NCBI GenBank assembly: GCA_030431775.1
Contig: JAUIHW010000002.1
Span: 62,001-126,000 of the forward strand
Source: Gammaproteobacteria bacterium
GTDB lineage: Bacteria; Pseudomonadota; Gammaproteobacteria; Pseudomonadales; JAUIET01
Reading direction: 5' to 3'
Length of the DNA stretch: 64,000 nt
The translations under genes were made by a program, and so were the position numbers. This document shows, piece after piece, positions 29,582-30,885 of this stretch (position 1 is the first letter of the stretch; each line of letters starts with the position of its first letter). Under the pieces are notes generated by a model that was not told where the DNA came from, made no database searches, and saw nothing but the letters and a program-made list of their open reading frames with translations.

Positions 29582-29974
29582 TCAACGCTTCGAGAATTGC
29601 GGCCGCTTCCGTGCTTTCCTTAGCCCTACTTTCTTGCGTTCCACAGCACGTGCGTCACGGGTTACAAAGCCCGCCTGGCGCAACGGTTGACGCAAGCTCT
29701 CATCATATTCTAGCAGAGCACGGGTAATACCGTGGCGAATCGCACCGGCCTGACCAAAACTACCGCCACCAGCCACGCTGACATGGATGTCGAACTTGTC
29801 GGCCATATCCGCAACCTCTAGCGGTTGCTTGACAATCATCCGAGCGACCTGGCGACCGAAATAGGTGTCAAGTGTTCGATTATTGACGGTTATCTGACCA
29901 GTACCAGTACGCAGATAAACTCGTGCGGTGGAGGTTTTGCGTCGGCCAGTGCCGTAGTATTGAGTGTCTGTCAT
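29582..29974 (-). CDS. rpsI: 30S ribosomal protein S9
   Basis: S9 binds the 3' domain of 16S rRNA, and its C-terminal tail contacts P-site tRNA. The ATG at 29974 gives 130 residues, as in E. coli; the frame opens further upstream but without homology. Seen are [16 protein letters not shown] near the start, [19 protein letters not shown] in the middle and the tail [14 protein letters not shown]. It follows rplM with a 38-base gap, and a terminator follows at 29480-29506. Confidence 0.99.
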
Positions 29975-30012: not shown

Positions 30013-30885
30013 TCAATCGGCTTCTCGGCCGCCGTCCAATGCATCCTGATAAGTTTGTAGTTCATCCCATTGCTGGTCAACGCAGTATTGAGCCTGCTTT
30101 GGCCAGGTAGACGGGTCATGCACCGCGTAGCGGCTGCCAGCGTCCGCCAGTATAGCCTTTAACTGCTCGACGTCGGCACTTGCAAGAGCGGCCCATGTGG
30201 TAATTCCGGCATCATTCATCAAACCGGCGATCTTAGGGCCGACACCTTCGATGATTTTGAGGTCATCCTGAGCGTATTTCTTGCCGCCAAAGCTGATCTT
30301 ATCAGCGGCTTTTTTGCCCTGCAGGCCTGGCGCATCCGGCGCCTGCGAGTTGCTGGCGGCAGGTTTGGCCTTCCGACTGGGCTTTTTAACCTCGGCGGGC
30401 TTGGCGTTAGCGACAAATTTGCTGGGGCTGACGTGCGCGATTGAGGCACGCTTCTGATTAAGGTCCAATACTTCGGGCTGCTGCGCCGTGTGCGGGTGCT
30501 CGGCCCCGGCATACACTTTGAGCTTTCGAAACATCTGTCGGCCCAGCGGATTCTTTGGCAACATCCCCTTGACGGCATTTTGCAGCGCTCTTTCGGGCGC
30601 TCGCTGCAGCAACTTTTCGAGCGAAATACTCTTCAAGCCACCCGGGTAACCGGTGTGATGATGATATTGCTTATCGGTGAGCTTGCGCCCCGTGACGCGA
30701 ATTTTTTCCGCGTTGACTACAACGATATAATCGCCGGTGTCCACATGTGGAGTGTATTCAGGCTTGTGCTTACCGCGCAGGCGGCTAGCGATGTCACTGG
30801 CCAAGCGACCTAAAGTCTGGTTGGAAGCGTCAACCACGTACCAGCCACGCTGCACATCCGTGCTTTTTGCGGAATATGTTTTCAT
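30013..30885 (-). CDS. rplM: 50S ribosomal protein L13 with a C-terminal helix-hairpin-helix extension
   Basis: Residues 1-142 ([10 protein letters not shown] to EVLDLN) are a normal complete L13, with [23 protein letters not shown] and [10 protein letters not shown]; the E. coli protein ends at this point with 142 residues. Here the frame continues to 290 residues. A linker rich in Lys, Ala and Pro (about 143-203) leads to a helix-hairpin-helix-like domain at about 207-250 ([17 protein letters not shown]). A tail with DPSTWPKQ and [11 protein letters not shown] follows. The HhH type resembles small H3TH nucleic-acid-binding domains (COG3743-like). The ATG at 30885 follows L13 homology. No stop separates the parts, and rpsI follows normally after 38 bases. 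Confidence 0.93.

Follow-up and report, generated by a model that had tools for sequence, protein, structure and literature searches.

Ribosomal protein L13 fused to a C-terminal helix-hairpin-helix domain in one gammaproteobacterial genus

In a Gammaproteobacteria bacterium we identified a ribosomal protein L13 (uL13) that continues into a helix-hairpin-helix (HhH) domain, a genuine, conserved and rare fusion that gives a known, unexplained mobile module a new host. The gene, rplM-HhH, lies at 30013..30885 on the minus strand of the window, the 64,000-nucleotide stretch of DNA analyzed here, and its 290 codons plus stop agree in coordinates, strand and length with an earlier sequence-only reading. 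L13 occupies residues 1-142 (30460..30885, minus strand) and matches TIGR01066 (rplM) over residues 4-141 (E 1.2e-63; 213.2 bits against a curated cut-off of 93.05). That L13 is complete at residue 142, as the earlier reading held, is borne out both by this match and by its relatives, since among the best 80 of 511 L13 loci all 80 are 142-144 amino acids long. A linker rich in Lys, Ala and Pro (residues 143-206; 30268..30459, minus strand) leads to the HhH domain at residues 207-290 (30016..30267, minus strand), where PF14520 (HHH_5) matches residues 209-245 above its gathering cut-off (31.6 bits against 27; profile positions 4-40 of 57). Both parts had been proposed from the letters alone, as had the position of the gene at the head of the usual rplM-rpsI operon; what we take, by sequence recognition rather than a family search, to be rpsI (S9; 29582..29974, minus strand) begins with its ATG at 29974, 38 bases downstream of the fusion gene. 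A single L13 match was found in the window's genome (G000; 98.3% complete, 121 contigs), where L19, S2 and L21 are of ordinary length (open frames of 123, 251 and 115, respectively).

We utilized AlphaFold2 to predict the structure of the tail. Residues 196-290 were modeled with a pLDDT of 92 and a pTM of 0.83, and in the full-length model the L13 and HhH parts were largely confident, with residues 171-193 falling below 50, which points to a disordered linker. The domain has EGVGPK as its one canonical hairpin; its second half is degenerate, a further helix is added at the C-terminal end, and a WPKQA... segment is located there. Only the first hairpin bears the GxG motif, and the lysine of GVGPK is nearly invariant across 41 copies of the domain. 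By sequence profile, the closest solved relatives were protein-O (8yy9, E 2.9e-10) and a complex I subunit (9wqv, E 3.4e-7), and the AR2 domain of NusA was remote (E 0.17-0.2). A Foldseek search with the HhH model returned no match at E≤0.001. In fold comparison, polymerase theta (Z 8.6) and the N-terminal domain of RadA (Z 7.4) scored highest, followed by NusA AR2 (1wcn, Z 6.6, rmsd 2.4, 64 residues aligned of 70; 6ib8, Z 6.5); all these scores are middling, and a Z below 8 may reflect merely a common arrangement. The domain profile also weakly matched archaeal eL32 (9l94_Q, E 0.11; 1jj2_X, E 0.42), a further ribosomal protein that may carry an ancient HhH extension.

The tail combines an acidic HhH part (charge -9, pI 4.2) with a basic linker (+11). 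Over the 81-column core of the domain, the charge is -8/-9 for the L13 copies, -9 to -12 for seven bL19 copies, -3 to -8 for uS2 and -7 for NarH. Acidity is not general to the subtype, because single-domain membrane-anchored copies average -1.2 and range from -5 to +5. We compared these values with HhH control segments from the same genome, 28-59 residues long and presumably belonging to the proteins named, which were assigned by recognition: RuvA +4, UvrC +3, PolA +1, RecG-like +1, NusA -11 and -10, and DNA ligase -7 and -7. DNA-binding (HhH)2 domains have two canonical hairpins and a positive face; in the L13 tail hairpin 1 is canonical, hairpin 2 is degenerate and the net charge is -9, and the ligase controls are likewise acidic. 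We therefore dropped acidity as proof against nucleic-acid binding, given these acidic ligase segments and the basic charge of some membrane-anchored copies.

The same L13-HhH fusion, 300 amino acids long, is present in a second species of the genus (G001). Between the two species, 122 of 142 residues are identical in L13, 30 of 57 in residues 143-199 and 63 of 91 in residues 200-290. Within residues 200-290, codon positions 1 and 2 changed at 36 of 182 sites against 51 of 91 at position 3 (Fisher p 2.4e-9), and within residues 143-199 at 46 of 114 against 37 of 57 (Fisher p 0.002). The NG86 dN was 0.088 for L13, 0.56 for residues 143-199 and 0.22 for residues 200-290, the linker being faster-evolving than the HhH part; dS was not computable, which we read as saturation. 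Because third-position changes far exceed those at the first two positions in residues 200-290, the tail is translated and under selection, and an excess of this kind at saturated synonymous divergence indicates purifying selection. The HhH copy of the second species scored 20.8 bits against HHH_5, below the cut-off of 27, and therefore the Pfam model fits this subtype only loosely; one uS2 copy also fell short (23.2 bits), and a membrane-anchored copy in the window's genome (C82) gave no HHH_5 match at 0.001. Codon usage was uninformative as a sign of high expression, with indices of 0.715 for the HhH part, 0.807 for the linker and 0.761 for L13 against a mean of 0.750 for 36 other window genes and a median of 0.772 for 27 ribosomal-operon chunks, all computed from a reference set of 19 ORFs with no leave-one-out.

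We analyzed how far the fusion extends beyond these two species. L13 was matched in 55 of 56 genomes searched, and 28 of the 30 loci read in the order stop 11-13 residues past the Pfam L13 match (own genome included in both counts), whereas the two loci of the window's genus extend 159 and 169 residues past it. In a sample of the class, L13 was matched in 340 of 369 genomes, and among the matches listed (about 150) none but the window's own reaches residue 207. When the tail itself served as the query, the order gave matches in 22 of 390 genomes, with 20 of the 28 places read, two of them as second domains of frames already read. A strict HhH profile at E≤1e-12 was found in 3 of 385 genomes of the order (G000, G001 and G085), and at 1e-10 in 14 of 398 genomes of a phylum sample, the window's own included; in some genomes the searches scored only part of their candidates. 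Among 107 distinct carrier frames compared by BLAST with an L13 reference, only 2 were L13, both from the window's genus. The L13-HhH fusion is thus rare within the genomes sampled and confined there to one genus, whose nearest named organisms in an L13+S9 tree are Halieaceae. Long L13 frames in four genomes (G050, G054, G015 and G477) were set aside, as they are extended only upstream and end normally, and so was an additional L13 hit in G040 (E 4e-5), which on reading is unlike L13. A literature search, with most subscription journals outside it, found no paper that names both ribosomal protein L13 and the helix-hairpin-helix, and no title or abstract opening among those listed dealt with a bacterial ribosomal protein bearing an HhH tail.

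The sequence-only reading had mentioned similar HhH tails on other ribosomal proteins, and we observed them on uS2, bL19 and bL21. In other Gammaproteobacteria, much the same subtype ends uS2 (L174, L203, L205 and L206), bL19 (L175, L177, L180, L182, L186, L204, L207 and L208), the nitrate reductase beta subunit NarH (L201 and L202), a class I PHA synthase (L191, without the final LDGG part), jacalin-like lectin proteins (L210, L211 and L215) and membrane-anchored proteins. In all 43 strong distinct carriers, the last HhH copy stops 1-16 residues before the C-terminus. A BLAST comparison with seven references assigns 8 of them to bL19, 4 to uS2, 2 to uL13, 3 to jacalin-like proteins, 2 to NarH and 1 to PHA synthase and leaves 23 unassigned (contig-edge fragments included); ribosomal proteins make up 14 of the 43. 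A membrane-helix-like stretch, judged by eye as for all carriers, stands near the start of 19 of the 23 without a reference. Another subtype, of the FKGR type, stands at the end of bL21 (9 of the 64 weaker carriers), including by-eye bL21-like proteins in three genomes of the window's own order (L146, L147 and L148; G012, G053 and G114), and also at the end of proteins that look phasin-like by eye. Several proteins may be tagged in one genome: uS2, bL19 and bL21 in G726, and two uS2 copies, bL19, NarH and a jacalin-like protein in G599. The two uS2 frames of G599 (L205 and L206) are distinct and each is HhH-tailed, L206 being cut by the contig end. A scan of two bL19 proteins brought up no long-form NCBIfam bL19 model. 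For S2, NCBIfam holds a curated 'sunset domain variant' (NF051451), a hint that uS2 elsewhere bears a different added domain. In both species of the window's genus, the genome yielded one other strict-subtype carrier, a coiled-coil protein with an N-terminal membrane anchor (C82 in G000). In both, this gene is followed by one for a TM-OmpA-like protein, the Pfam OmpA search having been run on the G000 copy, so that the two genes form a conserved pair (L256:3813-5238 and L257:3980-5392).

We generated a tree of 41 domains to examine the origin of the L13 tail. In it, the L13 copies of the two species pair with each other (99/88, starred), and the group around them (94/94, not starred), which lies away from the bL19 and uS2 copies, is otherwise composed of membrane-anchored proteins. 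In AU tests run after the tree had been inspected, a single clade of all ribosomal carriers was rejected (p 0.007), so that ribosomal proteins are likely to have acquired the domain at least twice; a clade of L13 with L19 was not rejected (p 0.15). The membrane protein C82 was discarded as an own-genome donor, since a grouping of L13 with the membrane-anchored copies of its own genus was rejected (AU p 0.012) and the tree places C82 elsewhere. L13 is a new carrier of a mobile HhH module, which it probably acquired by an independent gain.

What such a module might do on the ribosome can be outlined as follows. L13 has acquired a mobile HhH module at its C-terminus, borne by a flexible arm some 60 residues long; with a single rplM found, the module should be present on every 50S subunit unless it is cut off. 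The module is probably exposed at the outer 50S surface near L20. On the surface of the ribosome, the C-terminal domain of L20 is in contact with both L21 and L13 (PMC2672003), so that two carrier proteins of HhH tails share a neighbor. With the L13 C-terminus pointing outward, as we infer, the arm would give the domain a large space to move through. We tentatively propose, at somewhat below even confidence, that the domain is a docking module by which the 50S subunit captures a protein partner, as the acidic HhH domain AR2 does for NusA, so that a factor would be recruited to ribosomes or ribosomes held at a site. AR2 is C-terminal in NusA and binds SuhB (Kd 94 nM) and the C-terminal domain of the RNA polymerase alpha subunit (PMC6614801). 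The fold and the pattern of acidity together lean toward such an AR2-like protein-binding role, and they fall short of proof because the DNA ligase controls are acidic as well. Two further observations sit uneasily with docking: DNA-linked folds outscore AR2 in the fold comparison, and one partner would not easily suit a range of carriers that spans NarH, PHA synthase and lectin-like proteins. A wider version, in which the domain serves bacteria as an address tag, seems quite improbable to us; here a C-terminal docking code, gained repeatedly by ribosomal proteins (uL13, bL19, uS2 and bL21), by respiratory enzymes and by proteins of storage granules, would direct all of them to a common scaffold or factor in the cytoplasm and thereby position ribosomes in the cell.

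The HhH is classically a nucleic-acid module, and the domain together with its basic linker could bind DNA or RNA without sequence preference, keeping ribosomes near the nucleoid or on mRNA or rRNA. The near-invariant lysine of the hairpin, the linker charge of +11, the top fold scores of polymerase theta and RadA and the likewise acidic ligase segments of the same genome all speak for this. So do the PHA synthase and by-eye phasin-like proteins among the carriers, since a COG3743 match on Halomonas PhaC2 has been interpreted as a sign of DNA binding (PMC8686332), and ComEA-type H3TH domains raise affinity for DNA (PMC4777378). The second hairpin, however, is degenerate in sequence, and the acidity of the L13 and bL19 copies contrasts with the positive RuvA and UvrC segments. 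We regard a nucleic-acid tether, which the sequence-only reading had put forward together with a possible role in L13 autoregulation, as rather unlikely and favor the protein-docking tether over it, on evidence that does not settle the choice.

HhH domains might also pair with one another, so that tagged ribosomes would meet membrane-anchored HhH proteins such as C82, and thereby the inner membrane, or each other. Consistent with this, the sole other strict-subtype carrier found in both species is membrane-anchored, and membrane-helix-like starts, seen by eye, dominate the strong carriers that lack a BLAST assignment. Yet in G731 the search at E≤0.001 yielded bL19 and nothing else, and none of the five matches in G599 looks membrane-anchored; within the sensitivity of the search, pairing with a membrane carrier of this profile is therefore not general, and we consider this explanation doubtful. 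We think it slightly less probable still that the domain is a near-neutral passenger, a mobile unit landing on C-termini and tolerated because it hangs free of the ribosome. The great diversity of carriers and the rare, patchy occurrence in the order would suit a passenger, but the third-position excess in the HhH part, the 63 of 91 residues kept between species and the repeated targeting of ribosomal proteins argue against it. An artefact, in which a lost stop codon or a sequencing error fused rplM to downstream coding sequence, deserves almost no credence: the fusion stands in two species, the domain is confidently folded, rpsI follows independently, and we found no support for such a reading of this fusion.

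To our knowledge, ribosomal proteins seldom gain whole domains. The presence of one small domain family on at least four ribosomal proteins, as well as on NarH and PHA synthase, suggests a shared cellular role, and this recurrence on ribosomal proteins is of more interest than L13 alone. L13 nevertheless offers a clean single-copy test case, for which purified ribosomes alone would be enough, no L13 other than the tagged one having been found.

The closest parallels in design are the HhH-tailed forms of uS2 and bL21 (PRK12311 and PRK12278), which, like the fusion described here, consist of a ribosomal protein, a linker and a C-terminal HhH. The host here is instead uL13, for which no long-form model appeared among the matches, and the bL21 tails read in this work are of the FKGR type, unlike the L13 tail. 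Against NCBIfam, the tail gave partial matches only, to models of tail-bearing proteins, and remained below the cut-offs of the long bL21 and uS2 models (39 against 193, 29.4 against 281 and 22.3 against 526 bits). The bL19-HhH and NarH-HhH proteins (L182, L202 and others) carry the same subtype as L13, with the pattern WPxQA...WxxLxxxQDxLxGG, on different hosts; the domain tree places L13 among membrane-anchored proteins, although a joint clade with bL19 is not rejected (AU p 0.15). A homologous C-terminal domain occurs in two membrane complexes, on protein-O of the Dinoroseobacter RC-LH1 complex (8yy9) and on the 41 kDa subunit of complex I (9wqv); for protein-O only the N-terminal portion is traced, the C-terminal domain is absent from the map trace and its function is called obscure (PMC12079452). 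NusA AR2 is remote in sequence, and the WPxQA/QDxLDGG extension of the L13 tail lies outside the stretch matched by sequence; like the tail, AR2 is an HhH domain with an acidic charge, and its fold, which the comparison covered almost from end to end at a middling Z, is similar.
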